Notes under the pieces: model-generated
Database searches by the model: none
What the model was told of the DNA's origin: nothing
The model's input: only the letters and a program-made list of their open reading frames with translations
Shown: positions 37,539 to 54,708 of the stretch, in pieces
How positions within the stretch are numbered: the first letter of the stretch is position 1
How the letters are laid out: each line of letters begins with the position of its first letter
Translations under genes and position numbers: made by a program
Assembly: GCA_009720755.1 (NCBI GenBank)
Contig: WNKV01000009.1
Coordinates: forward strand, 62,001 to 126,000
DNA from: Rhodoplanes serenus
GTDB lineage: Bacteria > Pseudomonadota > Alphaproteobacteria > Rhizobiales > Xanthobacteraceae
Reading direction: 5' to 3'
DNA length: 64,000 nucleotides

Positions 37539-37558
37539 GCATAACGGTACCAAATTAT
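37539..37558 (+). promoter_or_regulatory. GTAC-centred motif, site D (second ligase promoter)
   Basis: GCATAACGGTACCAAATTAT overlaps a near-consensus -10 TATAAC (37556-37561). It lies about 150 bases before the ligase gene at 37711 in a small AT-rich island; nothing else is apparent in 37513-37710. Confidence 0.5.
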
Positions 37559-37710
37559 AACAAGTGGACCGCTCGCGCCCCGTGTCGTGCCCCCGGAGAC
37601 AGGGCCGGCACGTCGGCCGCCGATCGAGGTGGCGACGAATGTGCCGATGATGGTCGTGTCGGCGACGATCGTGTCGGCGAGCCGTCCCGCCAAACGAGAG
37701 GGGAACGTAC

Positions 37711-40202: not shown

Positions 40203-40526
40203 CAGGTGGAACCGTCGCCCGTGACTCGTGAGAAAGCACTATCGCACAACTTCATTGTCCGCGAAAGGCGGAAATTTCGATAACTTGGCCTTCGTCGGCC
40301 ACTTGGCCATCGTTTCAGCCAAGTCGAATATGTCCATGGTGCGGGTTTCTCGCGCATCGCTGTCGCATTTCGGACATTCAGGCGATGATCGTCTGGCCGG
40401 AATCGAACGCGGCGCCGCAACCGTCGGGGGTCGCGGCGCCGTGCCGTCCGTCGCACCGGCAGCCGAGCCACAGCGGCACCGACCGGAGCCGATCAGCGCC
40501 CGCTGCGAGACTCGAGCCGTGCGGCG
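40203..40526. other. gene-free stretch upstream of gntR
   Basis: This 324-base stretch between gntR and the carbamate kinase gene holds site R1 and an ACTTGGCC direct repeat (40283-40290 and 40301-40308). No gene is seen; the rest may be the 3' untranslated part of the kinase transcript. Confidence 0.5.
40272..40283 (-). promoter_or_regulatory. TTCGAA-type motif, site R1 (gntR promoter)
   Basis: AAATTTCGATAA lies 70 bases before the gntR start and matches the other four sites of the set except at one core base. Its presence suggests autoregulation by the GntR protein. Confidence 0.5.
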
Positions 40527-41489
40527 TCACACCCCATCCGCCACGATGTGGGTGCCGGTGTCCCCCTGAATGACCGCGATCGCATCCTCCAGGCGCCCGA
40601 TCATGACCCGGCTGCCGCCGCCTTCGAGGAACTGGATCGCGGCATCGATCTTCGGCCCCATGCTGCCCGGCGGGAAGTGGCCTTCGGCATGCAGCTTGCG
40701 GATCTCCGACAGCGACACGCGGTCGAGCGCCTGCTGGTTCGGCTTGCCGAAGTTCACGGCCACCCGCGGCACCGCGGTGAGGATCATCAGGTCGCGGATT
40801 CCGAGCCCATTGGCGAGGAGCGCCGAGGTGCGGTCCTTGTCGATCACCGCGTCGATGCCGGCGTAGGCGCCCCCGGCGGAGCGCACCACCGGCACGCCGC
40901 CACCCCCTCCGGTCACCACCACGGCCCCGCTCTGCGCCAGCGTGTCGATCAGGGACACGTCGAGAATGCGCTTGGGCATCGGCGAGGGCACCACATGGCG
41001 CCACCCGCGCCCGGAATCCTCTCGCATGTCCCAACCGAGCTCGGCGCTCAGCTGGCCCGCCTCCTCCTCGGAGTAGAAATAGCCGATCGGCTTCGACGGG
41101 TTCTGGAAGGCAGGATCGGCAGGGTCGACCTCGATCTGGGTCAGCAGGGAGGCGACCGGCCGATCATTGCCGGCCTCGCGCAGAACGTTGGCGAGCGCCT
41201 GGGTCAGCACATAGGCGATGCCGCCCTGGCTGTGGGCCACGCAGATGTCGAGCGACATGGGCTCCACCCGATGGCGTGCGAGCGATTGGCGCAGCAGGAT
41301 CTTGCCGACCACCGGCCCATTGCCGTGGGTGATGATCAGCCGGTTGTTGAGCTGCATGACGGGCAGCAGCGAGCGGCCGAGCTCCGTCGCGATCGCGACC
41401 TGCTCGAGAGGGGTCCCGCGGATGCCTTCCGGGTGGATCGCGTTGCCGCCGACGGCGATGACGAGTGCTTCGGGAATGTCTTTGCCCAC
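40527..41489 (-). CDS. arcC: carbamate kinase (ArcC/AllK family)
   Basis: The 320-residue amino-acid-kinase-fold protein has VIAVGGNAIHPEG (10-22), THGNGPVVGKILLRQ (54-68), VVTGGGGGVPVV (about 209-220), the DKDRTSALLANGLG segment and PPGSMGPKIDAAIQFLEGG. It interconverts carbamoyl phosphate plus ADP with carbamate plus ATP. The start is GTG with GGAGG upstream. No arginine deiminase genes are nearby; the divergent neighbours are YlbE- and AllH-like genes, as in the Escherichia coli allantoin/oxamate cluster, so it probably recovers ATP from carbamoyl phosphate made there. Confidence 0.9.
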   Translation of the reverse strand: MGKDIPEALVIAVGGNAIHPEGIRGTPLEQVAIATELGRSLLPVMQLNNRLIITHGNGPVVGKILLRQSLARHRVEPMSLDICVAHSQGGIAYVLTQALANVLREAGNDRPVASLLTQIEVDPADPAFQNPSKPIGYFYSEEEAGQLSAELGWDMREDSGRGWRHVVPSPMPKRILDVSLIDTLAQSGAVVVTGGGGGVPVVRSAGGAYAGIDAVIDKDRTSALLANGLGIRDLMILTAVPRVAVNFGKPNQQALDRVSLSEIRKLHAEGHFPPGSMGPKIDAAIQFLEGGGSRVMIGRLEDAIAVIQGDTGTHIVADGV

Positions 41490-41570
41490 TGGGTTCCTCC
41501 ACGGAGTCAGGCGTCCGGAGGTCGGCCGGACCGTCGCGATCCAGTAGCCCGGATAAACTGCTGGATCAAC

Positions 41571-41585
41571 AAAATTTCGAAAATC
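41571..41585. promoter_or_regulatory. TTCGAA-type motif, site R2 (kinase/ylbE divergent promoter)
   Basis: AAAATTTCGAAAATC sits in the 200-base divergent space between the carbamate kinase and the first YlbE-type gene. It is the most symmetric copy of the set. Confidence 0.55.
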
Positions 41586-41603
41586 AGTATGTTGATCGAT
41601 ATC

Positions 41604-41631
41604 TTGAAAATTCTCCCATGTTCTGTAGAGT
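41604..41631 (+). promoter_or_regulatory. sigma-70-like promoter of the first ylbE operon
   Basis: TTGAAA (41604-41609) and TAGAGT (41626-41631) are spaced by 16 bases, about 60 bases before the GTG start. Site R2 lies just upstream of the -35. Confidence 0.5.
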
Positions 41632-41689
41632 GTCGGGCGATCGCGCCCCAGGGGCAGCTCCGGGTCGCTGGCACAGAGGAGAGACGGCG

Positions 41690-42943
41690 GTGGATAAAAT
41701 CGAAGCCGCGAACAAAGAGGTGCTCGGCCGGATTCTCCGGGCGGACCCGGTCCTGGTCGATGTGAAGCCCGCCGGAGAGGTGATCGAGGGCTTGGAGCGC
41801 GGCACCATCCTGCATGCGGGGCCGCCGATCGAATGGAGCCGGATGTGCGGCCCCATGCAAGGGGCGGTGTGCGGGATTGCGGTGTTCGAGGGGCTGGCGA
41901 AGACTCTCGATGAAGCCGCCGAAGCCGCGGCGTCCGGTGCGTTCCGGTTCCAGCCCAACCATCACTTCGGGGCCGTCGGCCCCATGACCGGGATGATCAC
42001 CCCGAGCCAGCCGGTGCTCGTCGTCGAGAACCGCGCCTTCGGCAATCGTGCCTACAGCACCATCAACGAAGGGCTGGGCAAGGTGCTGCGGTTCGGCGGA
42101 AACGACGCCGAGGTGCTGGCCCGGCTGCGCTGGATCGCCGACGAGCTCGGCCCGGCGCTGTCGGCCGCGCTGCGGCAGTGCGGCGGCATTCCCCTGAAGG
42201 GCATCGTGTCGCGCGGGCTCGCGATGGGCGACGAGATGCACCAGCGCAACGTCGCCTGCTCGTCGCTGTTCCTGCGCGAGATCGCGCCGCCGCTGGCGCG
42301 CGCGCTCGACGGCTCGGGCGGCGCGCTCGCCCGGGTTCTGGAGTTCGTCGCCAAGAACGATCAGTTCTTCCTGAATATCGCGATGGCGATGGCGAAGTCG
42401 ATGACCGACCCGGCGCGCGGCGTCGACGGCTCGACGATCGTGACGGCGATGAGCCGCAACGGCACCGAGTTCGGCATTCAGGTCAGCGGCACGGACCGGC
42501 AGTGGTTCACGGCGCCGGTGGAGATGCCGGTCGGCATGTACTTTCCCGGCTATTCGGAGAAGGACGCCAACCCCGACATGGGCGACTCGGCCATTGTCGA
42601 GGTGGTTGGGCTCGGCGGCTTCGCGATGGCGTCCGCCACCGCGGTGGCCGGCTTCGTTGGCGCCGGCTCGGCGAGCGAAGCCGCGCAGTACACCCGATCG
42701 ATGTATGAGATTACCGCCGCACAGAATCCCGATTGGTCGATGCCCAACCTCGACTATGCCGGGGTGCCGACCGGGATCGACATCCGCAAGGTTCTCCGCA
42801 CCGGCATCACGCCCTACATCAACACCGGCATCGCGCATCGGCTCGCTGGTGTCGGCCAGGTGGGGGCCGGCATCGCGCGGGCGCCACTCGCCTGCTTCGA
42901 GCAAGCTCTCACGACATTGGCGCAGCGGCTCGGAGTGGACTGA
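41690..42943 (+). CDS. YlbE/AllG-family protein (DUF1116), copy 1
   Basis: The 417-residue protein matches E. coli YlbE/AllG in length and in the segments TILHAGPPIEWSRMCGPMQGA (about 38-58), NHHFGAVGPMTGM, VLVVENRAFGNRAYSTINEG and AKNDQFFLNIAMAMAK. AllG is a subunit of an oxamate carbamoyltransferase with FdrA (AllF) and AllH. The start is GTG at 41690 with GAGGAG eight bases upstream; the frame is open further back through the promoter. It is followed by the DUF2877 gene. A second copy is at 51136. The exact substrate here is unknown. Confidence 0.85.
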   Translation: MDKIEAANKEVLGRILRADPVLVDVKPAGEVIEGLERGTILHAGPPIEWSRMCGPMQGAVCGIAVFEGLAKTLDEAAEAAASGAFRFQPNHHFGAVGPMTGMITPSQPVLVVENRAFGNRAYSTINEGLGKVLRFGGNDAEVLARLRWIADELGPALSAALRQCGGIPLKGIVSRGLAMGDEMHQRNVACSSLFLREIAPPLARALDGSGGALARVLEFVAKNDQFFLNIAMAMAKSMTDPARGVDGSTIVTAMSRNGTEFGIQVSGTDRQWFTAPVEMPVGMYFPGYSEKDANPDMGDSAIVEVVGLGGFAMASATAVAGFVGAGSASEAAQYTRSMYEITAAQNPDWSMPNLDYAGVPTGIDIRKVLRTGITPYINTGIAHRLAGVGQVGAGIARAPLACFEQALTTLAQRLGVD

Positions 42944-43027
42944 GCCGCCGGGGGTGCAGGTTTAACGACGCGGACCGTGGGCCGCCGCGGCGGGCGGCGT
43001 TCCAGGCCGCTGCGGCGGCACTTTCAC

Positions 43028-43058
43028 GAGACCCGCCGCCGGCGAGGCGGCGGGTCTC
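43028..43058 (+). terminator. strong hairpin between ylbE copy 1 and DUF2877
   Basis: A perfect 13-bp stem (GAGACCCGCCGCC) with a 5-base loop lies in the 180-base space between the genes. Without a T-run it may attenuate rather than stop transcription into the DUF2877 gene. Confidence 0.5.
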
Positions 43059-43123
43059 TCGTCCGAACGAATTATTCGCCGAGGCAGCCTGCCTCGGCGG
43101 CTCGCAGCGCCTTCGAGGGCTCG

Positions 43124-43987
43124 ATGCAAGCGCAATCGGGAGATGCCGGATTCATCCGCGCCGTCGAAACGAAACGGCGCGCCGGGGTGGTGCACAGCGT
43201 GTTCAATCGCGCGCTGAACCTGCGCTTCGACGATGGACCTGATCTCTACACGCTGATATCGCGACGCAAGCTCCGGGCGCCGAACACGTTGAACCTCGGC
43301 GATGTCGATTTCCACGCGGCGGCCGTCGTGGTCGGCGATAGGGTCACAGCTGCTGACGGCACTCTCGATATAGCCGGCAAGCTCCGGGTCGGCGTCGCCA
43401 GGGCCTCGTCGTGGCAGCCGACCATTCCGGCGCTCCATCACGATGCGGACCGAATGCGGGTCGGGCTGGAGATCGCCCGCAGCTTCGTGCTGCGTCACGG
43501 CATGCGGGGCGGGGCGCTCGAGGACCACTGCGGCCCGTTGCTGTCGCGCATGGTCAGCCGAAGGATCGGGGACGAGAGCGATGGCCTCGTGGCCGCGTAT
43601 CGGGCCGGGCGGATCGCCGAGGCGGTCGATCATGCCTCTCGCCTGATCGGCCTCGGCCCCGGGCTCACTCCGTCCGGAGACGACCTGCTGCTGGGCTTCA
43701 TCGCGGCGCTGCAGACCCGCCGGCCGCTGCCGGCGGAGGCCGCCGCGTTCGGCGCGGCCGTGGTCCGCATCGCTCGGTCCTCCACCAACGACATCAGCCT
43801 CGCGGGGCTGGTGGCGGCGGCCGACGGTGCAGCCGGTGAGGCGGTGTCCAATCTGCTCTGCGCCATCTGCAACGCAGCCATACCGGCGATCGAGGCGGCT
43901 GTGCGCGATGTCCTGACGATCGGAGCGTCCTCCGGGACCGACATGGCTGTCGGCGTGATGAGCGGACTGCGGGCGAGCTGCCGCTGA
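43124..43987 (+). CDS. DUF2877 protein (AllH/YlbF type)
   Basis: The 287-residue protein carries the family core LIGLGPGLTPSGDDLLLGFIAAL (about residue 181) and ARSSTNDISLAGLVAAADG, with a C-terminal IGASSGTDMAVGVMSGL. DUF2877 proteins accompany FdrA and YlbE and form the third subunit (AllH) of oxamate carbamoyltransferase in E. coli. It follows the first YlbE copy on the same strand. The ATG at 43124 has GAGGG upstream. Confidence 0.82.
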   Translation: MQAQSGDAGFIRAVETKRRAGVVHSVFNRALNLRFDDGPDLYTLISRRKLRAPNTLNLGDVDFHAAAVVVGDRVTAADGTLDIAGKLRVGVARASSWQPTIPALHHDADRMRVGLEIARSFVLRHGMRGGALEDHCGPLLSRMVSRRIGDESDGLVAAYRAGRIAEAVDHASRLIGLGPGLTPSGDDLLLGFIAALQTRRPLPAEAAAFGAAVVRIARSSTNDISLAGLVAAADGAAGEAVSNLLCAICNAAIPAIEAAVRDVLTIGASSGTDMAVGVMSGLRASCR

Positions 43988-44136
43988 CGTGATCCGGCGG
44001 CGCGCCGGATGCGATACCGACGTGAGCGGGCCGCAGGGTTTCCACCAGCCGTGCGACGTACGGAAACAGCGTTCGAGTTCCACCTGACGGAACACGTCTG
44101 AGAAGGCCCAATGACGCCTTCGATCTGGCCACGCCC

Positions 44137-44166
44137 GAGACGCCTCGCGCTTGGGCGAGGCGTCTC
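44137..44166 (+). terminator. hairpin after the ylbE-DUF2877 operon
   Basis: A perfect 12-bp stem (GAGACGCCTCGC) with a GCTTGG loop lies 150 bases after the DUF2877 stop. It is in a 388-base gene-free stretch (43988-44375) that otherwise contains only site R3 and the transporter promoter. Confidence 0.55.
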
Positions 44167-44298
44167 CCGCGTCCTTCATCGATCCCGCGAGCGCGCCGCG
44201 CGGGGCGTCATGCGTGTCGCTCAACCCGCCTTCAACTCTGTCACGCTGCGGTTGCCGCGCGGTCGGGTGAGTATTCATCCGGACCATGGAGAAGCCAT

Positions 44299-44312
44299 GG
44301 AAATTCGAAATT
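44299..44312 (+). promoter_or_regulatory. TTCGAA-type motif, site R3 (MFS transporter promoter)
   Basis: GGAAATTCGAAATT lies 64 bases before the preferred transporter start. It argues that the in-frame ATG at 44286, which precedes the site, is not used. Confidence 0.5.
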
Positions 44313-44375
44313 ACGCTAGACGGCGCCGATCATCGTTTTAGTATGCGATCAACGAGCTCGGCTGTTTCACGAACG

Positions 44376-45704
44376 ATGGAGAATGAGGTGTCTACCGAAA
44401 CACTCACGCCGCCCCGATCAGGGTCGGCGTCGGCCGGCAACTATCGATGGCTCCAGCTCGCCCTCGGTATCATCTGCATGGTCGCGGTTGCCAACGTCCA
44501 GTACTCCTGGACCTTGTTCGTTCCTGAGATCCAGAAGACCTATGGATGGTCGCGGGCTTCGATTCAGACGGCATTCACGATATTCGTGATCATCCAGACC
44601 TGGGTGACCCCGGTGGTCGGCGTCGGGATCGACCGCTTCGGTCCGCGTCCGATCGCCATGCTGGGCGGCACGGCGGCCGGTCTCGCCTGGATCATGAACT
44701 CCTTCGCGTCGTCGCTCACCGGGTTCTATATTGGTGCCGCCATCGGCGGCATCGGGGCGAGCTGCATCAACGCCTGCGCGGTCAACAACGCGCTCAAATG
44801 GTTCCCGGATCGCCGCGGCCTGGCCGTCGGGCTGTCCGCCGCGGGGTACGGCTCGGGCACGATCATCACGACACTGCCGATCGCCAACATGATCCAGAGC
44901 AGTGGTATCAGCACGACCTTCCTGACCTTCGGGATCATCCAGGGACTGGTGATCGTCGCGGCAGGGCTCTTCCTGCGGGCGCCCCGCAAGGACCAGGTCA
45001 GCTACTCCACCAAGCTGGTCCAGTCGCGCCGCGACTACACGCTCGGTGAGGCGATCCGGACTCCCGTGCTCTGGGTCTTAATGGTGATGTTCACATGCAC
45101 CATCACGGGCGGCCTGATGGCGGTGGCGCAGCTCAGCCTCATCGCGCAGGACTTCGGCGTGAAGGACATCCACGTCAACGTGTACTTCTTCAGCATGGCG
45201 GCCCTGCCGTTCGCGCTGATGCTCGACCGTTTCATGAACGGCCTGTCGCGACCGTTCTTCGGCTGGGTGTCAGACACCATCGGCCGCGAGAAGACGATGT
45301 TCATCGCCTTCTCTCTCGAATCGATCGGAATTCTGGCGCTGGCGACGTTCGGCTCCAATCCATGGCTGTTCGTCATCCTGTCCGGCGTCGTGTTCCTGGC
45401 CTGGGGCGAGGTCTACAGCCTGTTCGGCGCCATCACGGGCGATGCCTTCGGCACCAAGCACGCCGGCAAGATCTACGGCATCCTGTTCCTCTCGAAAGGC
45501 TTCGCGGCCCTGTTCGTTCCTGTCGGCAACCTGATCATGGAAGCGACGGGCTCGTGGGCCACGGTTCTGTACATCGTCGCATCGCTGGACTTCATCGCGG
45601 CGACCTCGGCGCTGTTCATCCTGCGGCCGCTTCTCCTGCGCCATCACGCCAAGGACGCGACCACCAACGCCGCCATGGCGAGCGTCGGCAAACCCGCCCA
45701 TTGA
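44376..45704 (+). CDS. OFA-family MFS transporter (oxalate/formate antiporter-like)
   Basis: The 442-residue protein has twelve membrane segments and resembles the OxlT/OFA group: NVQYSWTLFVPEIQKTYGWSRASIQ near the start, IGGIGASCINACAVNNALKWFPDRRGLAVGLSAAGYG in the first half, and RPFFGWVSDTIGREKT in the second. Such transporters move small carboxylates such as oxalate, oxamate-like or formate anions. The start is uncertain: ATG 44376 was chosen, and GTG 44388 has the better ribosome site; earlier ATGs (44343, 44286) overlap the promoter. Its place between the AllGH-like genes and the permease suggests import of the pathway substrate or export of its acid product. Confidence 0.8.
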   Translation: MENEVSTETLTPPRSGSASAGNYRWLQLALGIICMVAVANVQYSWTLFVPEIQKTYGWSRASIQTAFTIFVIIQTWVTPVVGVGIDRFGPRPIAMLGGTAAGLAWIMNSFASSLTGFYIGAAIGGIGASCINACAVNNALKWFPDRRGLAVGLSAAGYGSGTIITTLPIANMIQSSGISTTFLTFGIIQGLVIVAAGLFLRAPRKDQVSYSTKLVQSRRDYTLGEAIRTPVLWVLMVMFTCTITGGLMAVAQLSLIAQDFGVKDIHVNVYFFSMAALPFALMLDRFMNGLSRPFFGWVSDTIGREKTMFIAFSLESIGILALATFGSNPWLFVILSGVVFLAWGEVYSLFGAITGDAFGTKHAGKIYGILFLSKGFAALFVPVGNLIMEATGSWATVLYIVASLDFIAATSALFILRPLLLRHHAKDATTNAAMASVGKPAH

Positions 45705-45713
45705 GGCGACCGA

Positions 45714-45739
45714 GGCCCGCCCGGCTGCACGGGCGGGCC
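45714..45739 (+). terminator. rho-independent terminator after the MFS gene
   Basis: A 9-bp GGCCCGCCC/GGGCGGGCC stem is followed by TTCGTTCTTC, nine bases after the stop codon. This is the most convincing intrinsic terminator in the window. Confidence 0.7.
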
Positions 45740-45811
45740 TTCGTTCTTCGGCCGCTCCAGGCGGCGCACACGATCGAGCGGCGCGCTTCGCCTTCCCTTC
45801 GGCACCAGAGA

Positions 45812-45839
45812 GAACAGCCGGCCTGCGGGCCGGCTGTTC
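45812..45839. terminator. second hairpin in the 45.7-46.1 kb spacer
   Basis: A perfect 12-bp stem (GAACAGCCGGCC) with a TGCG loop lies inside the 368-base gene-free stretch 45705-46072. That stretch also holds site R4 and no gene. Confidence 0.5.
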
Positions 45840-45930
45840 GCGTTTCGCGCGAGGCGGTGTCGATGTGACGGACATCCGGAGAATGGGGATGTCGGGGTTT
45901 GCAGCCAAAGATCGTATAACCTACAAAAAC

Positions 45931-45950
45931 AATAATTTCGAAAATATATT
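45931..45950 (+). promoter_or_regulatory. TTCGAA-type motif, site R4 (lactate-permease-like gene)
   Basis: AATAATTTCGAAAATAT runs directly into a -10-like TATATT (45945-45950) about 120 bases before the permease start, so a bound protein would block the promoter. Confidence 0.55.
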
Positions 45951-46072
45951 GCATCGCCATCTTGTGCGGAGTAGCGTGAAATGCCGTCCGGCACGGACGG
46001 CCCGAGCCGTTGGTTGCCTGCGCTCGCTCTCGGCGACGGCGGCTCGAAGCGACGGTCAGCGAGGTGTCTGTG

Positions 46073-47665
46073 ATGTCCCTGCCTATGAATGTCGTCACCT
46101 GGTCAGGGGCCGCACTGTCCATCATCCTCCTCGTCTACCTTCTGGTCTGGCGACGATGGTCGGCCGTGCAGGCGTCCGCTGCCGGGGCGTTGATCGCGAT
46201 CGTGATCGCGTTCGGGCTCTACGGCGCAACGCCGCAAGGGGTCGGAGTCGAGGTCGCCAAGGGCGTGTGGAACAGCGTGTCGATCATCGCCGTCATCGTG
46301 CCCGCCATCCTGATCTACGAGGTCAGCCGGGAGGTCGGCGGGTTTGGGACGATCCAGCGCGAGCTGTCGCGCCTCATCCCCGACAAGCTGCTCCAGGTCA
46401 TCGCGTTGGGCTGGTGCTTCTCCAGCTTCCTTCAGGGACCCTCCGGGTTCGGCGTGCCGATCGCGGTGACGGCGCCGCTGCTCATCGGGATCGGCGTGAA
46501 GCCGTTCTGGGCCGTGCTGGTGCCGCTGATGGCGCACGCCTGGGCCAACACGTTCGGCACGCTGGCGCTCGCCTGGGAGGCGCTCGTCCAGCAGACGACC
46601 CTGATCGCCGACGCAACCCTCTATTGGGAGACGGCCTTCAAGACCGGACTGCTGACAGGGCTGCTCTGTGTGATCGCTGGCAGTCTGCTGTGCTGGCAGT
46701 ACGCCCGTTTCGCCGGCCTGCGTCGCGGATGGCCGGCGGTCCTCGTGGTGGGCCTGATCCAGGCGGGTGGGCAGCTTCTGCTCACGCAGATCACGCCGAC
46801 GCTGTCGGTGGTGATCCCGACGACCCTCGCGCTCGGCGTGGTGTTTGCGCTCGGGCGGCTGCCGCGCTACGCGCGCTCCTATGCGGACGGCAGCCCCATG
46901 CTGGTGGACGTGCCGGAGGGGGCGAGCGACAAGAGCCCGTTGACCATCCACGAAGCGCTGCTGCCCTATTACATCCTGGTTGGCGTATCGGTTTTCGTGC
47001 TGCTCACGCCCGGAGTGAACGCCGCGCTCGGCGCCTGGAAGATGAGTGTCGCGTTCCCGGAGACCAGCACGGCATACGGATTCGTCAACAAGGCGCAGCC
47101 GGTCTACGGGTCGGTGTCGTGGCTCACCCATTCCGGCTTCTTCCTGGTCCTCGCGGCCGCCGCCTCGTGCGCCTATTTCGGCTCGAAGGGCCTGATCCGT
47201 CGCGACGGCCTCGTCCGGATTCTCGCTGACACCGCCCGCAAGTCGGTGCCGGCGGCGATCTCGGTGGCGCTTTTGCTGACGATGAGCAAGGTGATGACGG
47301 GCAGCGGGCAGATCGAGGTGCTGGCGCGTGGCACGGCCGGCGCGACCGGGGCCTACTATGCGGCGCTGGCACCTCTGGTCGGCACCCTCGGAGCCTTCAT
47401 GTCGTCGAGCAATGTCAGCTCCAACATCCTGTTCGGGCAGTTCCAGGAATCGATGGCGCAATTCACCGGCAAGAGCGTGTCCAGCATCCTGGCGGCGCAG
47501 ACCAGCGGGGCCGCCATCGGAACGATGTTCTCACCGTCGAAGGTTCTCCTCGGCACCACGACGGCTGGAATCGTCGGCCAGGAGGGCGCCATCATCAAGA
47601 AGCTGCTCGTCGTCGCCGTGGTGGCGGCCGCCCTGATGGGGCTGGTCACCGCCTTGGCCGTCTGA
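46073..47665 (+). CDS. LctP/L-lactate permease family transporter
   Basis: The 530-residue protein has about 13 membrane segments and the family signatures FSSFLQGPSGFGVPIAVTAPLLIGIGV (about residues 115-141), AHAWANTFGTLALAW and, near the C-terminus, GTLGAFMSSSNVSSNILFG and GQEGAIIKKLL. Characterised members import L-lactate or glycolate with protons. Given the surrounding ureide genes the substrate may be another hydroxy- or oxo-acid. GAGGTG lies six bases before the ATG at 46073. Confidence 0.82.
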   Translation: MSLPMNVVTWSGAALSIILLVYLLVWRRWSAVQASAAGALIAIVIAFGLYGATPQGVGVEVAKGVWNSVSIIAVIVPAILIYEVSREVGGFGTIQRELSRLIPDKLLQVIALGWCFSSFLQGPSGFGVPIAVTAPLLIGIGVKPFWAVLVPLMAHAWANTFGTLALAWEALVQQTTLIADATLYWETAFKTGLLTGLLCVIAGSLLCWQYARFAGLRRGWPAVLVVGLIQAGGQLLLTQITPTLSVVIPTTLALGVVFALGRLPRYARSYADGSPMLVDVPEGASDKSPLTIHEALLPYYILVGVSVFVLLTPGVNAALGAWKMSVAFPETSTAYGFVNKAQPVYGSVSWLTHSGFFLVLAAAASCAYFGSKGLIRRDGLVRILADTARKSVPAAISVALLLTMSKVMTGSGQIEVLARGTAGATGAYYAALAPLVGTLGAFMSSSNVSSNILFGQFQESMAQFTGKSVSSILAAQTSGAAIGTMFSPSKVLLGTTTAGIVGQEGAIIKKLLVVAVVAAALMGLVTALAV

Positions 47666-47682
47666 TCGATGGAGCATTGACC

Positions 47683-47862
47683 ATGAACCCGTTGCGCTGG
47701 AACGAGCAGGGCCGCATGAGCGCCGCGCTGGCGGCGCTGTGCGCGTCGGCTGTCCTGCTGAGCAGCCCCGACAGCACAGGGCCGGTGAGCTACACGCTGG
47801 GCTGGGCGCTGCTGGTGGCGTCGCTGCTGCTGCCCCTGTATTCCTGCGTGCGCCGGAGCTAG
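47683..47862 (+). CDS. small two-helix membrane protein (59 aa)
   Basis: Starting 17 bases after the permease stop with GGAG upstream, this short protein has two hydrophobic stretches (AALAALCASAVLLSS and LGWALLVASLLLPLYS). It may be an accessory or stabilising subunit of the permease. I do not recognise a family, and its stop codon falls at the edge of the following repeat element. Confidence 0.5.
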   Translation: MNPLRWNEQGRMSAALAALCASAVLLSSPDSTGPVSYTLGWALLVASLLLPLYSCVRRS

Positions 47863-47964
47863 AGCATTTTCCGGCGAAGTGGATGCCGGTTCGCCGTCGA
47901 AAATGCGATCACACAAGGACTTCTAGAGTGGAGTCCGATCCAGTTTGATCGGATTCCACTCTAG
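47861..47964. repeat. Rhizobiales-type intergenic repeat with long inverted repeat
   Basis: The segment begins AGAGCATTTTCCGGCGAAGT and ends in an 18-bp inverted repeat (47923-47940 and 47947-47964) with one mismatch and a 6-base loop. From memory, the opening matches a small repeat scattered between genes in Bradyrhizobium- and Rhodopseudomonas-like genomes. It can act as a bidirectional terminator between the convergent permease and AtzH-like operons. Confidence 0.7.
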
Positions 47965-48052
47965 CGGGAGCAAGCTGTTGCGCCGCGCCACCGCCGCCAC
48001 ATGTGTAATGCGGGGCGGCGTGCCGGTGTCGGCCGGCGCGGAGTGTGCGGGT

Positions 48053-48442
48053 TCAGTCCGCCGGCCGGTCGATCACGCTCACATGGGCGGCGACGATGCG
48101 CCAGCCTTGGGGGAGGCGCACCCAGCTCTGCATCTGACGGCCGATCTTCGCGGGGTCTCCGTCACGCTCGAACAACGTGGACGCGACGGCGAAGTCATTG
48201 CCATAGGTCGTGATGACCGTCCGCGACAGCCGGCGGTCCAGTCCGTGGGACAGCCGGGCGCGGCGGAACGTTTCGATCTCGGCGAAGCCGTAGAGGTTCT
48301 CTCCGGCGCCGTAGCGGATCGTTCGCGCATCGTCGAGGAACAGAGCCCCGAGCGTCTGCACGTCGTTTGAGACGAGAGCCCGCTCGTATTGCGCGAAGGC
48401 GCGCGCGACCTCGGCGATCACCTCCGGCCTGTCGATATCCAT
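48053..48442 (-). CDS. AtzH/HpxZ-like protein (DUF3225, SnoaL-like fold)
   Basis: The 129-residue protein contains FAQYERALVSNDVQTLGALFLDDARTIRYGAGENLYG (about residues 13-49) and ends with WVRLPQGWRIVAAHVSVID, typical of the DUF3225 group related to AtzH and HpxZ. These genes accompany amidases in cyanuric acid, oxalurate and allantoin catabolism. It is the last gene of the leftward operon that starts with the ring-opening amidohydrolase, which fits that pattern. A GTG at 48448 is an alternative start. Confidence 0.75.
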   Translation of the reverse strand: MDIDRPEVIAEVARAFAQYERALVSNDVQTLGALFLDDARTIRYGAGENLYGFAEIETFRRARLSHGLDRRLSRTVITTYGNDFAVASTLFERDGDPAKIGRQMQSWVRLPQGWRIVAAHVSVIDRPAD

Positions 48443-48482
48443 GGCCACATCACCGGATTGTTTTGCGTGACGGCGAGCCGCC

Positions 48483-49046
48483 TCACATCCACTTGGAGAC
48501 CTGGACCGGCCGATGATTCCGCAGGCCGTCGAGGAGGAGCTTCGGCTCGGATGCGACGATCAGCATGCTGCGCTGCTGGGAGGGTAGAAACCCTTCCGCC
48601 ACCATGGTGTCGAGGAACTGGAGAAATCGGTCGTAGAAGCCGCCGATATTGTAGAGGCCGAGTGGCTTGCGGTGGCCGTCGAACTGCGCATTCACCCACA
48701 TCTCGACGAGCTCCTCCACGGTGCCGAGGCCACCCGGCATGGCGATGAAGCCGTCGGCGACCGCAGCCATGCGGATCTTCCGGTCCGCCCGCGAGGCCAC
48801 CACCTCGGATACCGCCAGCTTGTCGTACAGCTGTCCCTTGTCGACGAGCACCTGCGGGACGATGCCGTGCACGGTGCCGCCCCGGCTGCACGCCGCATCC
48901 GCGACGATCTTCATGAGGCCACGGCTGGTGCCGCCGAACACGAGCGTGATGCCCTGATCGGCGAGCGCGCGGCCGAGTGCGGCGGCGGCTTCGCTGTAGA
49001 TCCGGGAATGTCCGTGGTTCGAGCCGCAGAAGATGGCGAGCTTCAT
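48483..49046 (-). CDS. LOG-family nucleotide phosphoribohydrolase
   Basis: The 187-residue protein has the LOG lysine-decarboxylase-like fold with FCGSNHG, FGGTSRGLMKIVADAA, SRADRK (conserved Arg) and the hallmark PGGLGTVEEL (residues about 102-111). LOG enzymes release the base from a nucleoside 5'-monophosphate, giving ribose 5-phosphate. In this operon a free pyrimidine-like base could be the product that feeds ring oxidation and opening, but no uracil-oxidising genes are present. Cytokinin activation is the other known role. Confidence 0.82.
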   Translation of the reverse strand: MKLAIFCGSNHGHSRIYSEAAAALGRALADQGITLVFGGTSRGLMKIVADAACSRGGTVHGIVPQVLVDKGQLYDKLAVSEVVASRADRKIRMAAVADGFIAMPGGLGTVEELVEMWVNAQFDGHRKPLGLYNIGGFYDRFLQFLDTMVAEGFLPSQQRSMLIVASEPKLLLDGLRNHRPVQVSKWM

Positions 49047-49145
49047 CGGGTGTATCCACTGGCTGGAGCGCTGCGGCCGCGACCCGAGGGCCGCGGCCGC
49101 AGGCCGGCGATCGGTTGTGCGAGATCGCCGGGCGCGGTCACGGCG

Positions 49146-49571
49146 TCAGCCGAAGGTCTGAGCACCCTCGATCGCGGCGAGCCCGGCCTTGGTGACCTCG
49201 AGATCCTCCTCGCCGGTCTGGGAGCCGCATCCGATTCCGCCGATGGTGATGCCATCGACGATGATCGGGAGTCCACCCTTGAGATTCACCAGCCGACCGG
49301 ACGTCGCATGGGCGAGCCTGAACTCCAGATCGCCCTGGATGCCGCCGGTGGGGCCGCGACTCGAAGCGGCGGTCGCGGCCTTCCGGATTGCCGACTCGAT
49401 GCTGAGGATCTTGCCGCCGTCCATGCGGGTGAAGGCGAGCAGGTTGCCGCCCTCGTCGACGACCGCGATGCACTGGGGCTTGCCCATCTGGACCGCCTTC
49501 GCCACGGCGGCTTCGAGGATACGCATGGCGCCTGCGTGAGTGAGCCGCAGGTGCTTCTCGACATTGCTCAT
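49146..49571 (-). CDS. GlcG/HbpS-family protein (DUF336)
   Basis: The 141-residue protein has the GlcG fold: LTHAGAMRILEAAVAKAVQMGKPQCIAVVDEGGNLLAFTRMDG at the front and GGLPIIVDGITIGGIGCGSQTGEEDLEVTKAGLAAI at the back. Members bind haem or small cofactors or occur as uncharacterised parts of catabolic operons (glycolate, propanediol, ureides). It lies 21 bases after the amidohydrolase gene. No catalytic residues are known. Confidence 0.82.
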   Translation of the reverse strand: MSNVEKHLRLTHAGAMRILEAAVAKAVQMGKPQCIAVVDEGGNLLAFTRMDGGKILSIESAIRKAATAASSRGPTGGIQGDLEFRLAHATSGRLVNLKGGLPIIVDGITIGGIGCGSQTGEEDLEVTKAGLAAIEGAQTFG

Positions 49572-49592
49572 CGGTCTGTGTCCGTTCGGTCG

Positions 49593-50711
49593 TTACGCTT
49601 TCGCCTCGGCGATGACGCAGAGCAGGTTTGCGCCGGGCGGGCCCTGGTGCTCGGCACCGGCCGAGGCGAGGAACTGGGTGTCGCCGACGATCGTCGCCAC
49701 GATGGCGTGTGCCACGGCCTTGGCCTGAATGCCGCAGAACGGCGCCAGGAAGTCCGAGTGGAGGACGTGCCGCCGGCCGCGCACGTTGGTGACGTAGTCG
49801 GCGCCCGCATTCACCAGCACGCCGGCGATGCGCTTGCGGTCGTCTTCGGTGAGAATGCCGTCCTTCAGCGACAGGCCGGCGTTCACGAACGCCTGACGGG
49901 CGCCCGCGATGTCGAGCTGGTCCTGCATCACGCCATGCGCCGCGACCAGGCGCCCCGGCGCGCCCTTGACGTTGCCGAGCACCATCACGCGGCAGGCGAC
50001 CTGCTCGCCGCCCGCCGAGGTGGAGGCCACCGACGAGTAGAGGGTCTTGTCGACATTGATGACGCCGTCCCGCAGCTTGCTGCGGTCGACCTCGCCGGTG
50101 GCGACGGCGATGCCGAGAGCGCAGGCGCCTTTCGCCAGCGAGGATGCGACCGCTGGGTTCATGGCGACGACCTTCTGGTTGCGGCTTTCGGCGTCGGCGA
50201 TGCGGGCCGGCGTCATCGCCGGGCACTTCACCTCGACGCACTCGATATCGGCGGGATCGGTGATTCCGGCGTCAGCCATCGCGCGCTTCACCGTCTCGGC
50301 CACGAGATCGACCTCGATCATCGTGCCGTACTCCTCGGGCTTGAGCTCGCGCGAGCTGGCGACGCCGATCGCCAAGCGCTTGGCGGTGCCTTGCGCGGGC
50401 GCCGTGGCGGGCTGCTTGATGAACAGGTAGATGTGGGGCGTCATGATGCCCCCTACGCCGCCGATCATCATCATCGGGATCTTGGCGAACACCTCGGCGC
50501 GGGAGAGGCCGAGTCGCTCCGACAGGAGCACCTCCATGGCCAGCGTCGCGTAGCCGCGGGCATAGGGGTCGCCTTCGGTCTGCTCCATGATCGCCACGAC
50601 GTGCCGTGGGTCCACCTCCTTGCGGTCGAAGAGCGCGGCGACTTGCGAGACGTCTCCGGGCGAACTCATCGGAACGCAGACGACTCGGGATTCCAGCAGC
50701 TGGTTGGACAT
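49593..50711 (-). CDS. ring-opening amidohydrolase of the cyanuric acid hydrolase/barbiturase family (divergent)
   Basis: The 372-residue protein has the three-fold repeat of the cyclic amide hydrolase family. Domain B keeps its Lys (VEVKCPAMTP, K162) and Ser (ASTSAGGEQ, around S230-S232), and domain C keeps SAGAEHQGPPG. In domain A the family KTEG lysine is Gln (EQTEG, residue 44) and the GGTEGVLSPH-type motif is GGVGGIMTPH with Thr for Ser. In domain C the expected Lys is Asn (VLVNAG). The domain B dyad, thought to be catalytic, is intact, so it is probably active on a cyclic amide other than cyanuric or barbituric acid. AGGAG lies eight bases before the ATG. It heads a four-gene leftward operon and is divergent from the fdrA operon. 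Confidence 0.82.
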   Translation of the reverse strand: MSNQLLESRVVCVPMSSPGDVSQVAALFDRKEVDPRHVVAIMEQTEGDPYARGYATLAMEVLLSERLGLSRAEVFAKIPMMMIGGVGGIMTPHIYLFIKQPATAPAQGTAKRLAIGVASSRELKPEEYGTMIEVDLVAETVKRAMADAGITDPADIECVEVKCPAMTPARIADAESRNQKVVAMNPAVASSLAKGACALGIAVATGEVDRSKLRDGVINVDKTLYSSVASTSAGGEQVACRVMVLGNVKGAPGRLVAAHGVMQDQLDIAGARQAFVNAGLSLKDGILTEDDRKRIAGVLVNAGADYVTNVRGRRHVLHSDFLAPFCGIQAKAVAHAIVATIVGDTQFLASAGAEHQGPPGANLLCVIAEAKA

Positions 50712-50860
50712 TCCATAGACTCCTTTGGTCCGGTGGCGGCTCTCCGCCACCGGCCTTGCCGCGTCCGCTTGGTTGGTCCCGGGCCGCGGTGTCGGCTTTT
50801 CGTCCCGTCATCGGGACTGCCATTTGATACTACAATGCCGTCGATATAGCATCAATCGTA

Positions 50861-50874
50861 GAATTTCGAATTTC
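50861..50874. promoter_or_regulatory. TTCGAA-type motif, site R5 (amidohydrolase/fdrA divergent promoter)
   Basis: GAATTTCGAATTTC lies in the 252-base space between the leftward amidohydrolase operon and the rightward fdrA operon and could control both. The surrounding 60 bases are AT-rich, unlike the flanking genes. Confidence 0.55.
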
Positions 50875-50963
50875 TGTTGTTTCACGGTTCATCCTGGGGT
50901 AGGGTCGCGATCGATCGAGAGCGGTTGGCCGCGGCGCGGCGCCGCCACTGACGGAGAGACCAG

Positions 50964-51134
50964 ATGGAAGTCGACAAGCTTCTCAACACCGAGGTGCGGG
51001 TGATCAATGTCGGGTTGCGCGCCTTCGCGCAGGACCTGGAGAGCCGCAAGTCTCCCGTCGTGCATGTCGATTGGTCGCCCCCGCCGGCGTCGAGCGTGAA
51101 GTTCGGCAGCTTGCTCGATCGGCTGGGAGTCTGA
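50964..51134 (+). CDS. 56-aa protein resembling the C-terminal module of FdrA
   Basis: The frame starts at an ATG with GGAGAG five bases upstream and ends two bases before the YlbE start. The peptide contains VRVINVGLRAFAQDL and SPVVHVDWSPPP and ends in LLDRLGV. From memory this is the motif with which full-length FdrA proteins end (INVGL...VVHVDWRPPA). The FdrA encoded downstream lacks it at its own C-terminus, and the two together (506 plus 56) approach the length of E. coli FdrA. It therefore looks like a split-off FdrA module moved to the front of the operon. Confidence 0.7.
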   Translation: MEVDKLLNTEVRVINVGLRAFAQDLESRKSPVVHVDWSPPPASSVKFGSLLDRLGV

Positions 51135-51135
51135 G

Positions 51136-52392
51136 ATGACCGACATCGCCTCACGCATCGAAGCGGCGAACCGAGAGGCGCATCGGCGCATGCTCGGGGC
51201 CGACCCCGTGCTGGTCGACGTGATGCTGGCCAGGGATGCGATTCCCAACCTGCCGCCGCGCACCGTTCTGCATGCCGGCCCGCCGATCTCCTGGGAGCGG
51301 ATGTGCGGCCCCATGCGGAGCGCCGTGGCCGGCGCTCTGGTGTTCGAGGGCTGGGCGTCGGACCTCGCCGAGGCGGAGACCGTGGCGGCCTCCGGCGGCG
51401 TGCGGTTCGAGCCCAACCACCACTATGACGGGGTCGGCCCGATGACCGGCATCACCACCCCCGGCGTGGCGGTGCTGGTGGTGGAGAACCGCGCCTTCGG
51501 CAACCGCGCGTTCTGCACCGTGAACGAAGGCATGGGCAACGTCATGCGGTTCGGCGGCAACGACCAGGAGGTGCGCGACCGCCTGGCATGGATCGCCGGC
51601 GTGTTCGGGCCCGCGGTCGGGGCGGCGTTGCGGCGGCGGGGCGGCGTTCCGCTCAAGGGCCTGATCGCCCGCGGCCTGACCATGGGCGACGAGATGCACA
51701 TGCGCAATGCCGCCTGCACGGGGCTGATCCTGCGTGAGCTCGCTGCCGATCTGGCCGAGGTAGCGCCCGCGGATCTCGGGCGGATGCTGCGCTTCATCTC
51801 CGGCAATGACATGTTCTTCCTCAACATCGCCATGGCGATGGCCAAGGCGGTGGCGGCGCCGGCGCACGGAATCCCATACGCCACCGTGGTCACCACGATG
51901 GCGCGCAACGGCACCGACTTCGGCATCCGCCTCTCCTCGACCGGCGACGCCTGGTTCACCGGGCCGGCCCAGATGGCGCGCGGCCTGCTGTTCGCCGGCT
52001 TCACCGAGGCGGACGGCAATCCCGACATCGGCGACTCCTGCATCACCGAGACGGTGGGGCTCGGCGGCTGTGCCATGGCGGCGTCACCCGCGGTGGTGGG
52101 GTTCGTCGGCGCCGGCGCGCTGTCGGATGCGATCGGCTACACGCGCAGCATGAGCGAGATCACTGTCGGGCCGAATCCGGAATGGACGATGCCGACCATG
52201 GCGATGGCCGGCGTTCCGACCGCGATCGATGTCCGCAAGGTGCTGTCCACCGGCATTCTCCCCGTCATCAACACCGCCATCACCAATCGGCAGCCCGGGC
52301 GCGGCCAGATCGGGGCCGGCATCGTCAATCCGCCGCTGGAGTGCTTCCAGCAGGCGCTGATGAGGTTCGCCGAAGTTCACGGAGCTCTCTGA
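51136..52392 (+). CDS. YlbE/AllG-family protein (DUF1116), copy 2
   Basis: The 418-residue protein is a clear paralogue of the one at 41690, sharing VLHAGPPISWERMCGPM (about 43-59), NHHYDGVGPMTGI, VLVVENRAFGNRAFCTVNEG and SGNDMFFLNIAMAMAK. Here it is directly followed by fdrA and preceded by the FdrA C-terminal module, so all three probably form one carbamoyltransferase-like complex. A GGGAG ribosome site lies within the end of the small gene. Confidence 0.87.
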   Translation: MTDIASRIEAANREAHRRMLGADPVLVDVMLARDAIPNLPPRTVLHAGPPISWERMCGPMRSAVAGALVFEGWASDLAEAETVAASGGVRFEPNHHYDGVGPMTGITTPGVAVLVVENRAFGNRAFCTVNEGMGNVMRFGGNDQEVRDRLAWIAGVFGPAVGAALRRRGGVPLKGLIARGLTMGDEMHMRNAACTGLILRELAADLAEVAPADLGRMLRFISGNDMFFLNIAMAMAKAVAAPAHGIPYATVVTTMARNGTDFGIRLSSTGDAWFTGPAQMARGLLFAGFTEADGNPDIGDSCITETVGLGGCAMAASPAVVGFVGAGALSDAIGYTRSMSEITVGPNPEWTMPTMAMAGVPTAIDVRKVLSTGILPVINTAITNRQPGRGQIGAGIVNPPLECFQQALMRFAEVHGAL

Positions 52393-52395
52393 ATC

Positions 52396-53919
52396 ATGAC
52401 CATTCTCGTCAACGAGGTGCGGCGCGGGTTCTACATGGACTCGGTCGCGCTGATGCGGATCTCGCGCAGCGTCGGCGCCATGCCGGGGGTGAAGGGTGCC
52501 GCGCTGATGATCGGCTCGGTGACCAACAAGGCGCTGATGCGGGACGCCGGCCTTCTGGGTGCGACCGGCGAGGACGCCGGCCCGAACGATCTCGTGCTCG
52601 CGGTCCGGGCCGAGAGCGAGGAGGCGGCGACCACCGCGCTGTCGTCGGCGGCGGGTCTTCTCGACAAGCCGCCGTCGGTCGGGCAGGGCGCCTCGGAGTG
52701 GCTGCCGAAGACGCTCGACACCGCCGTGCAGCAGCTCCCCGGTGCCAATCTGGTGCTGATCTCGGTGCCGGGCGAGTTCGCGACGGCAGAGGCGCGGCGG
52801 GCGCTCCGGCGCGGCCTCAACGTCCTCATGTTCAGCGACAACGTGCCGCTCGCCGACGAGGTGGCGCTCAAGCAGGAGGCGCAGCAGCGCGGCCTGCTGA
52901 TGATGGGACCGGACTGCGGCACCGCCATCATCGGCGGCACGCCGCTGGCGTTCGCCAACGAGGTGCCGCGCGGCTCCATCGGTCTCGTCGGCGCCTCTGG
53001 CACCGGCTTGCAGGAGGTCTCGACGCTGATCGGGCGCAGCGGCGCCGGCGTGTCCCATGCGATCGGGGTCGGTGGCCGCGATCTCAAGGAGGCGGTCGGC
53101 GGCATCACCACGCTGATGGCGATCGATGCGCTCGACCGTGATCCGGGCACCGAGCAGATCGTGATCATCTCCAAGCCACCGGCTCCGTCGGTGGCCAAGC
53201 GGGTTCTCCAGCGCGTCGGCGAGAGCCGCAAGCCGGTCACCGTCTGCTTCCTCGGCGTCGACGACATGGCGCTGCCCGCCAACGCCGTGCTGGTTTCCGA
53301 TCTGCGCAGCGCCGCCGAGCGGGCGCTCGGGGGCGGGCGACTGCCGTGGTCCGATCGGCCCACGGTGGCGGCGCTGGCGGCGACCGTCGGGGCCGGACGG
53401 CAGCGCATCGCCGGCCTGTTCTGCGGCGGCACGCTGTGCGGCGAGGCTCAGCTCATGCTGCGCCGGGCCGGGCTCGCGGTCTCCTCCAACGCGCCGGTGA
53501 CCGGCGTCGCGACGCCGAAGGAAGCGCCCGGGGCTCACCGCCTCCTGGATCTCGGCGACGACGAGTACACGGTCGGGCGTCCGCACCCGATGATCGACCC
53601 GTCGTTGCGAGACGACATGGTGCGGGCCGCCTTTACGGACCCGGAGGTCGGGGTAGTCCTCGTCGACGTGGTGATCGGCTACGGCGCCCACGACGATCCG
53701 GCGACCGATCTGGTCGCCGTGCTGCCGGCCGCGGCTGAGCGCGGCGCCGTGGTGATCGCGTCGGTGTGCGGCACCGACCAGGATCGCCAGGGCTACGCCC
53801 GCCAGGTCGGTATCCTGCGTGACGCCGGTGTCGTCGTGGCGCCGTCCAACGCGCACGCGGCCGAGCTGGCGGCGGAGCTCGCCGGCGCGCTCGCCGCGGC
53901 TGGCGGGTCGTCGCGCTGA
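52396..53919 (+). CDS. fdrA: FdrA/AllF-family protein, lacking the C-terminal module
   Basis: The 507-codon gene encodes a protein with two succinyl-CoA-synthetase-like Rossmann halves. The N-terminal half contains MRISRSVGAMPGVKGAALMIGSVTNKALM, then MMGPDCGTAIIGGTPLAFANEV and IGLVGASGTGLQEVSTLIGRSGAGVSHAIGVGG (about residues 195-227); the later half has AGLFCGGTLCGEAQLMLRRAG. FdrA (AllF) is part of oxamate carbamoyltransferase in E. coli, which phosphorolyses a carbamoyl compound to carbamoyl phosphate. The protein ends in an Ala-rich helix without the VNVGL...HVDW module, which is encoded separately at 50964. Confidence 0.88.
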   Translation: MTILVNEVRRGFYMDSVALMRISRSVGAMPGVKGAALMIGSVTNKALMRDAGLLGATGEDAGPNDLVLAVRAESEEAATTALSSAAGLLDKPPSVGQGASEWLPKTLDTAVQQLPGANLVLISVPGEFATAEARRALRRGLNVLMFSDNVPLADEVALKQEAQQRGLLMMGPDCGTAIIGGTPLAFANEVPRGSIGLVGASGTGLQEVSTLIGRSGAGVSHAIGVGGRDLKEAVGGITTLMAIDALDRDPGTEQIVIISKPPAPSVAKRVLQRVGESRKPVTVCFLGVDDMALPANAVLVSDLRSAAERALGGGRLPWSDRPTVAALAATVGAGRQRIAGLFCGGTLCGEAQLMLRRAGLAVSSNAPVTGVATPKEAPGAHRLLDLGDDEYTVGRPHPMIDPSLRDDMVRAAFTDPEVGVVLVDVVIGYGAHDDPATDLVAVLPAAAERGAVVIASVCGTDQDRQGYARQVGILRDAGVVVAPSNAHAAELAAELAGALAAAGGSSR

Positions 53920-54698: not shown

Positions 54699-54708
54699 GG
54701 GCGTATCC

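Follow-up and report, generated by a model that had tools for sequence, protein, structure and literature searches.

The window analyzed here is a stretch of 64,000 nucleotides from Rhodoplanes serenus (contig WNKV01000009.1, positions 62,001 to 126,000) and belongs to a genome of 5.5 Mb with 69% G+C (G000). Between positions 39402 and 53919 of the window lies a gene cluster in which a ring-opening amidohydrolase of the AtzD/barbiturase family is found together with homologues of the three subunits of the E. coli carbamoyltransferase AllFGH and with a carbamate kinase. Genes were chosen on the basis of third-position G+C and profile matches. The order starts with a GntR/FCD regulator gene on the minus strand, followed by the carbamate kinase gene (minus), which is divergent from AllG1-AllH (plus), and by genes for a major facilitator superfamily (MFS) transporter and an LctP transporter (both plus). 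Next come the genes for the amidohydrolase, GlcG, LOG, and AtzH/HpxZ-like proteins (minus), divergent from a 56-aa open reading frame (ORF), AllG2, and FdrA (plus). The core of the finding runs from the carbamate kinase to FdrA. All genes named in a preliminary description of this DNA were recovered at their places by profile matches, and to these we add the GntR/FCD regulator and the LOG-family gene. The system is real and conserved and is probably co-regulated. We consider it fairly likely that it is a regulon through which a cyclic ureide would be converted into an N-carbamoyl acid, then into carbamoyl phosphate, and finally into ATP, a scheme in which all reactions and the substrate are read from the genes.

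The cluster had been described as standing under one motif, and this claim held. With up to two mismatches, AATTTCGAAAAT occurs at five places in the window, which corresponds to nine strand-matches against 0.41 expected, a number that none of 100 shuffles reached. Once gene starts had been refined, all five copies were intergenic, and there were none elsewhere in the window. Across the 5.5-Mb genome, four sites have at most one mismatch, and both exact ones are within the cluster; a control pattern gave one site. Sites resembling ATTTCGAAAT are also present in the amidohydrolase/AllG2 promoters of three homologous loci (L033, L034, and L035), and at locus L100 a one-mismatch ATTTCGAAAT site is located at position 6100, between the carbamate kinase and AllG1 genes. 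GntR homologues lie near the cluster in L033, L035, and L100. We infer that the GntR protein binds the operator copies, and the cluster is probably one catabolic regulon controlled by this neighboring regulator via the five copies.

The three homologous loci are all that a pattern scan for close relatives of the amidohydrolase gave among 84,980 species genomes. They belong to one metagenome-assembled genome (MAG) each from the Hyphomonadaceae (85% identity), the Burkholderiales (79%), and an alphaproteobacterial lineage (73%). In all three, the amidohydrolase and GlcG genes diverge from those for the small module, AllG2, and FdrA; in L034 the two halves are separated by genes for a BMP-type ABC transporter and two deaminase-like proteins. 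GlcG is near the amidohydrolase in all four clusters, the window counted. Each of the three homologue genomes (G572, G573, and G574) contains one AllH as well as an AllG that groups with AllG1 (group support 0.762). In the Burkholderiales genome G573, genes for AllH, carbamate kinase, AllG1, and GntR follow FdrA on one contig, with a site between the kinase and AllG1. In G572, about 24 kb separate the first FdrA from another AllH-kinase-FdrA-AllG-small module set of its contig, and in G574 AllG1-AllH is on a separate contig from the amidohydrolase locus. AllG is scarce: of 398 genomes of the phylum searched, 16 gave a match (counting G000), 15 of them above the cut-off, and its pairing with the amidohydrolase is therefore unlikely to be due to chance. 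Among genomes bearing other AtzD-family genes, 4 of 27 have AllG.

The coupling recurs with ring-openers of four kinds. Plasmid pSR8 of Aminobacter sp. SR38 (L123 10984-23403, NZ_CP062120.1) carries genes for FdrA, DUF1116, a ring-opening amidohydrolase, and carbamate kinase, after which come an amidohydrolase, a BMP transporter, and DUF2877. Its ring-opener is a copy of TrzD (5t13; 100% identity, rounded, over aligned columns). A K. quasipneumoniae plasmid (L120, NZ_CP084773.1) has this TrzD ring-opener, too, among genes of the same kinds, with atzF in addition. In C. freundii pE51_002 (L119 13731-23809, NZ_CP042536.1), the genes are those for a ring-opener, an NCS2 symporter, DUF2877, FdrA, DUF1116, carbamate kinase, and LysR, and the operon lies between IS26 copies in the one record looked at. 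With 581 bits, this ring-opener exceeds the cut-off for cyanuric acid hydrolases (360), and it shares 73% identity with the Moorella enzyme; the L119 and L123 enzymes both have the full cyanuric acid hydrolase signature. A ring-opener of the pE51_002 type (at least 90% identity) is found in 48 plasmid records, 47 of which also have its AllG (at least 90%). The two gene starts are 5.25-5.58 kb apart in 46 records and 25.3 kb apart in one record of 30.6 kb, where the remaining distance the other way would be 5.26 kb if the molecule is circular. Since the 48 records are close copies of one lineage, we count them as one event. In genome G032, a barbiturase-clade enzyme (L023/L050) with 4 of the 5 barbiturase signature residues shares its strand with AllG and FdrA, the three genes lying in a row; no further FdrA-linked barbiturases were found in the family of G032, which consists of G032 alone. 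This recurrence, the operator-like sites in the window and its homologues, and the results for the allantoin genes searched in G000 (AllB, PuuE, and AllD below cut-off and no PucG match) bear out the proposed coupling of a ring-opener with an AllFGH-type carbamoyltransferase and carbamate kinase. We regard the coupling to carbamoyl phosphate as likely, and it is wider than the preliminary description saw.

Other records contain related arrangements. The stretch 1105-6064 of L112 (also G032) has, by names given from reading the sequence, an M20-type, allantoate-amidohydrolase-like gene and a PucG-like aminotransferase gene, followed by a second AllG-FdrA set, an apparent allantoate-to-oxalurate-to-carbamoyl-phosphate arrangement. 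On E. coli plasmid pAPEC-O2-ColV (L122 9830-14823, NC_007675.1), genes for a cytosine permease and a LysR regulator come after those for DUF1116 and carbamate kinase; the gene table of this stretch, which is incomplete, lists no ring-opener. A barbiturase-like match is present on a Nonomuraea record that has no annotated features.

Table. Genes and operator copies of the cluster (window positions)
Feature	Position	Strand	Evidence
GntR/FCD regulator, CsiR-like; probable cluster regulator	39402..40202	-	Pfam GntR + FCD; PRK11534 147 bits, below cut-off 218
Operator copy, GntR promoter side	40273..40284	.	AATTTCGATAAC, 2 mismatches, intergenic
Carbamate kinase, AllK/ArcC type	40527..41489	-	PRK12352 330 bits (cut-off 266); arcC equivalog 338, below cut-off 358; 41% identity to E. 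coli AllK
Operator copy between carbamate kinase and AllG1	41573..41584	.	exact AATTTCGAAAAT
AllG1 (YlbE/DUF1116)	41690..42943 (refined start; ORF from 41465)	+	Pfam AllG 299 bits
AllH (YlbF/DUF2877)	42977..43987	+	Pfam AllH 81 bits (cut-off 25); sole AllH match in genome
Operator copy ahead of MFS	44301..44312	.	AAATTCGAAATT, 2 mismatches
MFS transporter, oxalate/formate antiporter family	44376..45704 (refined start; ORF from 44286)	+	TIGR04259 563 bits (cut-off 335)
Operator copy ahead of LctP	45934..45945	.	exact AATTTCGAAAAT
LctP, lactate-permease family transporter	46010..47665	+	Pfam Lactate_perm 255 bits
AtzH/HpxZ-like protein	48053..48448	-	Pfam AtzH-like 190 bits; NF033625 HpxZ 195 bits (cut-off 135); 52% identity to pADP-1 AtzH
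LOG-family protein (nucleotide 5'-monophosphate phosphoribohydrolase-like)	48483..49046	-	TIGR00730 153 bits (cut-off 96)
GlcG/HbpS-like protein	49146..49571	-	Pfam HbpS-like 109 bits
Divergent ring-opening amidohydrolase, AtzD/barbiturase family	49593..50711 (open frame to 50750)	-	Pfam Amido_AtzD_TrzD 368 bits
Operator copy between amidohydrolase and small module-AllG2-FdrA operon	50862..50873	.	AATTTCGAATTT, 2 mismatches
56-aa ORF, free-standing homologue of AllF/FdrA C-terminal module	50964..51134	+	52% identity over 44 aa to E. coli AllF 511-554; homologues in L033-L035
AllG2 (YlbE/DUF1116), amidohydrolase-linked clade	51136..52392	+	Pfam AllG 279 bits
FdrA/AllF without C-terminal module	52396..53919	+	PRK06091 493 bits (cut-off 433); matches E. 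coli AllF residues 6-499

Homologues of AllF, AllG, and AllH are all encoded in the cluster, with the C-terminal module of AllF on a separate ORF. The window FdrA lacks this module and the 56-aa ORF is its homologue, so AllF is encoded as two pieces. This ORF, for which a Pfam search gave no match, is what we take to be the small module mentioned in the preliminary description. The position of the module varies: it is C-terminal in E. coli AllF, free-standing in the window, inside the AllG frame in L050 (3894-3983), and N-terminal to AllG in L123 (12540-12680), and a further homologue is found at L090 7211-7342. In the tree, AllG1 groups with the AllG proteins of L100, L101, L103, L081, and L112 (support 0.762), and AllG2 forms a separate clade with those of L033-L035 (support 0.996). 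The kinase exceeds the cut-off of a catabolic carbamate kinase profile, PRK12352. The AtzH/HpxZ-like (DUF3225) protein matches its profile and, when aligned with pADP-1 AtzH, keeps Tyr22 and Arg46, the residues named for AtzH/HpxZ (PMC6219798).

The amidohydrolase belongs to the Toblerone-fold family of AtzD, TrzD, and barbiturase (PF09663, cut-off 25; TIGR02714 310 bits, cut-off 153). Four clade members were compared with 35 relatives, comprising 29 genome-derived sequences, 4 PDB chains, and 2 plasmid sequences (one of which equals a PDB chain); L030, which is the window itself, was dropped. Three positions that are invariant in 35 of 35 relatives are altered in all four clade members (Lys42 to Gln, Ser85 to Ile, and Lys296 to Asn, AtzD numbering), so that two of the three Ser-Lys dyads are broken. 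The clade also has Lys for Arg195 and Arg325, Gly for Glu89, and Ala for Gly345, and a four-residue loop is missing. Retained, in the same numbering, are Lys162, Ser233, Glu237, Arg54, and Ser344. The conserved Ser-Lys dyad with its Glu and the first Arg (K175, S245, E249, and R65) is kept in 4 of 4 members and is the same in the 35 others. Three Ser-Lys dyads were called conserved in all 68 homologues then known (PMC3758960), and none of the four clade members has all three. We still count them as members of the family because PMC4051656 gives only one dyad as absolutely conserved among 119 family members, Ser226-Lys156 with Glu230 and Arg52. When the six family groups and signatures of PMC3758960 are applied, the window enzyme has one of five residues of the cyanuric acid hydrolase signature (Arg195/Thr321/Arg325/Gly345/Gly346) and one of five of the barbiturase signature (Asn195/His321/Lys325/Val345/Ser-Ala346). 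It scores 314 bits with NF052395, below the cyanuric acid hydrolase cut-off of 360, and lies outside the clade of the barbiturase 5hwe. Its own clade has support of 1.0 and a long branch. The AlphaFold2 model was poor, with a mean predicted local distance difference test score (pLDDT) of 48 from an alignment of only four sequences. To judge from its residues and the tree, the enzyme represents a new clade within the family, distinct from both cyanuric acid hydrolases and barbiturases, and its pocket is predicted to be no longer three-fold symmetric. The data do not support the earlier term barbiturase/cyanuric-acid-type hydrolase, with three residues invariant in 35 relatives altered. Another AtzD subgroup (L008, L021, and L025) is 40-41% identical to the window enzyme and has Glu at the Thr321 position.

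We propose that the divergent amidohydrolase would open a cyclic ureide at its single Ser-Lys-Glu site, resulting in an N-carbamoyl carboxylate. The carbamoyltransferase, made up of AllF as two polypeptides, AllG2/AllG1, and AllH, would then move the carbamoyl group to phosphate and leave an amide acid, and carbamate kinase would use carbamoyl phosphate and ADP to form ATP, NH3, and CO2. The MFS and LctP transporters would carry the carboxylate. As a tentative first guess, the ring-opening product may be oxalurate and the substrate parabanate, from which a single step would lead to oxalurate, or a related oxalyl ureide. In favor of oxalurate are the score of the MFS transporter above the oxalate/formate cut-off, the grouping of AllG1 with the AllG next to the PucG-like gene of L112 (support 0.762), and the known activity of AllFGH, by which oxalurate is interconverted with oxamate and carbamoyl phosphate (PMC11326118). 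A GGT-family protein is encoded beside AllG1-AllH in G574 and has homologues of 54-59% in G000, G572, G573, and G462, the one in G000 being on a contig other than that of the cluster. The oxamate amidohydrolase HpxW belongs to the GGT family, and by this analogy oxamate might be converted further to oxalate.

Several observations, here and in the next paragraph, weigh against the regulon reading. Near the amidohydrolase, MFS is present in only 2 of the 4 clusters, LOG in 3, and the AtzH/HpxZ-like gene in 1. Carbamate kinase was not seen in the G574 stretches taken, and FdrA of L035 (G574) groups with L081/L103, outside the group of the other three, in a tree from which the L112 FdrA, cut by a contig end, is excluded. 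In the phylum search, no AtzD homologue was found in 15 AllG regions of other genomes (15 of the 19 AllG places outside G000 were taken, and the weak-score places in G212, G372, G474, and G420 were left out), so the pairing is found at a minority of AllG loci. Parabanic acid slowly self-hydrolyzes at neutral pH (PMC5703782). The HpxZ label, considered as proof of oxalurate, was rejected and is no pointer to this compound, because AtzH of the pADP-1 cyanuric acid pathway bears the same name. A one-step scheme also leaves the two AllG paralogues unexplained. Their presence in all four genomes suggests two carbamoyl removals. As a long shot, phosphate-dependent carbamoyl stripping might be a general mobile ATP route from ring-opened ureides, triazines, and barbiturates, of which the window version acts twice. 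The amidohydrolase would open a ring from uric acid oxidation or a triazine ring (e.g., oxonate) to an oxalylbiuret-type chain, AllG2 and the split AllF would take the first carbamoyl to leave oxalurate, AllG1 would take the second to leave oxamate, and carbamate kinase would gain two ATP per ring. PuuE is above the cut-off in G572 and G574, and G574 also has a 65% PucG homologue, so the AllFGH set there may serve allantoin. Since anaerobic allantoin degradation in E. coli is known to end with AllFGHK (PMC11326118), the window set might likewise belong to ordinary allantoin/ureidoglycolate catabolism, with the amidohydrolase as an unrelated neighbor. We find this quite unlikely, given the shared operator, the conserved divergent gene order, and the recurrence of the pairing with other ring-openers. 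Moreover, AllB or PuuE together with AllD or PucG was not found in G000: the best scores were 259 bits for AllB (cut-off 358), 107 for PuuE (425), and 212 for AllD (496), and a PucG-like search gave no match, with uricase, allantoicase, and ureidoglycolate lyase outside the gene set searched. In G573, too, AllB, AllD, and PuuE are below cut-off, and the best PucG match is an aminotransferase of 31%.

The altered active site raises the question of whether the amidohydrolase is an enzyme at all. In the Azorhizobium cyanuric acid hydrolase, change to Ala of the equivalents of the three residues altered in the window clade lowers activity about 10^4-fold (Lys40 and Lys285) or 10^7- to 10^8-fold (Ser79), and Arg188 to Lys, a change also seen in the window clade, costs about 5,000-fold (PMC4051656). 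Peat et al. propose Ser85-Lys42, lost here, as the catalytic dyad of AtzD (PMC3758960). If they are right, the window clade would be inactive as such. With two of the three dyads broken and two of the three substrate-binding Arg residues replaced by Lys, the protein could be a pseudo-enzyme that serves in binding or regulation, and the carbamoyltransferase could run in reverse or be fed by an open-chain ureido acid imported by MFS or LctP. We consider this very unlikely, as all four members keep the absolutely conserved dyad and its partners (Ser226-Lys156, Glu230, and Arg52; PMC4051656) and are 73-85% identical across lineages. The Moorella study likewise favors the Ser226-Lys156-type dyad (PMC6557486), and if these two studies are right, the window enzyme can be a hydrolase. 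Its ring might then be of the triazine or barbiturate type (cyanuric acid, an ammelide-type compound, oxonate, or a 5-substituted barbiturate), with a terminal carbamoyl group taken from a biuret- or ureidomalonate-type product and oxalurate uninvolved. The L119 and L123 enzymes with their full cyanuric acid hydrolase signature, the 4 of 5 barbiturase residues in L023/L050, atzF in L120, and the AtzH-like protein that is 52% identical to pADP-1 AtzH all fit this. The BMP-type ABC transporter and cytosine-deaminase-like amidohydrolase of L034 resemble in kind those of the TrzD cluster in L123, so triazine-like rings stay candidates, but these proteins are only 26-42% identical between the two loci. 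In the window enzyme itself, Lys42, Ser85, and Lys296 are replaced by Gln, Ile, and Asn, Arg195 and Arg325 both by Lys, and Gly345 by Ala, and its score stays below the cyanuric acid hydrolase cut-off; moreover, neither atzF nor biuret hydrolase was seen among the operator-bearing genes. Such a ring as the substrate seems to us rather improbable.

The genes on either side of the cluster were set apart from it. Downstream, a minus-strand run (54087-63996) encodes an isochorismatase hydrolase, HyuA, HyuB, a PEP-mutase/methylisocitrate-lyase-like protein, and an LIV-type ABC transporter. The isochorismatase-HyuA-HyuB genes (54087-58592) were considered as part of the system and excluded because the motif search of the window found no operator copies there, and the run as a whole was set apart for the same reason. 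It may represent an N-carbamoyl or hydantoin-type pathway. Upstream, the genes at 26663-39309 (an LIV-type ABC transporter, two AMP-binding, acyl-CoA ligase-like proteins, a thioesterase-like protein, and a molybdopterin-binding dehydrogenase subunit) probably belong to a separate pathway.

The preliminary description held that such a path would be new. Public records already contain the pairing as such, among them one with a copy of the characterized cyanuric acid hydrolase TrzD, and to this extent the claim does not stand. What stands is that the pairing of a ring-opener with FdrA/AllG/carbamate kinase was not found described in the open-licence literature (titles and abstract beginnings), among the matches listed. 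In 2024, AllFGH was given a function, in the degradation of allantoin (PMC11326118). The pairing seen in these genomes suggests that AllFGH may follow ring-opening amidohydrolases, TrzD included, more widely. If this is true, an ATP-recovering route via carbamoyl phosphate would be added beside the described hydrolysis by AtzE or BiuH after ring opening. The literature describes three symmetric dyads and disagrees on the catalytic one; with a single Ser-Lys-Glu site left, the window clade offers a direct test of that question. It also bears on the way in which a pocket of three-fold symmetry became suited to a different substrate, and the arrangement points to a life on cyclic nitrogen compounds.

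Among known systems, the allFGHK genes of Nitrospira_D adjoin triuret-degradation genes with bmpA-nupABC; according to the extract of that paper, a cyanuric acid hydrolase gene was not found in the nitrifier MAGs (PMC12625717), unlike the pairing with a ring-opener in the window. TrzD/AtzD cyanuric acid hydrolases are of the same Pfam family as the window enzyme and have Lys162, Ser233, Glu237, and Arg54 in common with it, but the identity is 39-42%, and the three invariant residues, Arg195, Arg325, and the four-residue loop set them apart. Barbiturase (PDB 5hwe) likewise has Lys at the Arg325 position, but the window enzyme is only 36% identical to it, lacks the Asn195, His321, and Val345 signature, and falls in a separate clade. 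The closest counterpart of the carbamoyltransferase set is E. coli AllFGH-AllK (allFGHK, formerly fdrA-ylbE-ylbF-ybcF), to which the window proteins are 41% (FdrA), 51% (AllG1), 44% (AllG2), and 41% (carbamate kinase) identical, and AllH about 30% over 108-138 aa. The window set differs from it in having a split AllF, with the 56-aa ORF ahead of AllG2, and two AllG genes; it also shares one operator with a ring-opening amidohydrolase in a genome where the allantoin genes searched are below cut-off. Finally, the AtzDGEHF operon of pADP-1, with a BMP transporter nearby, has a ring-opener and an AtzH-like protein in common with the window, but whereas AtzG, AtzE, and AtzF follow there, the window bears the AllFGH/carbamate kinase set in their place.

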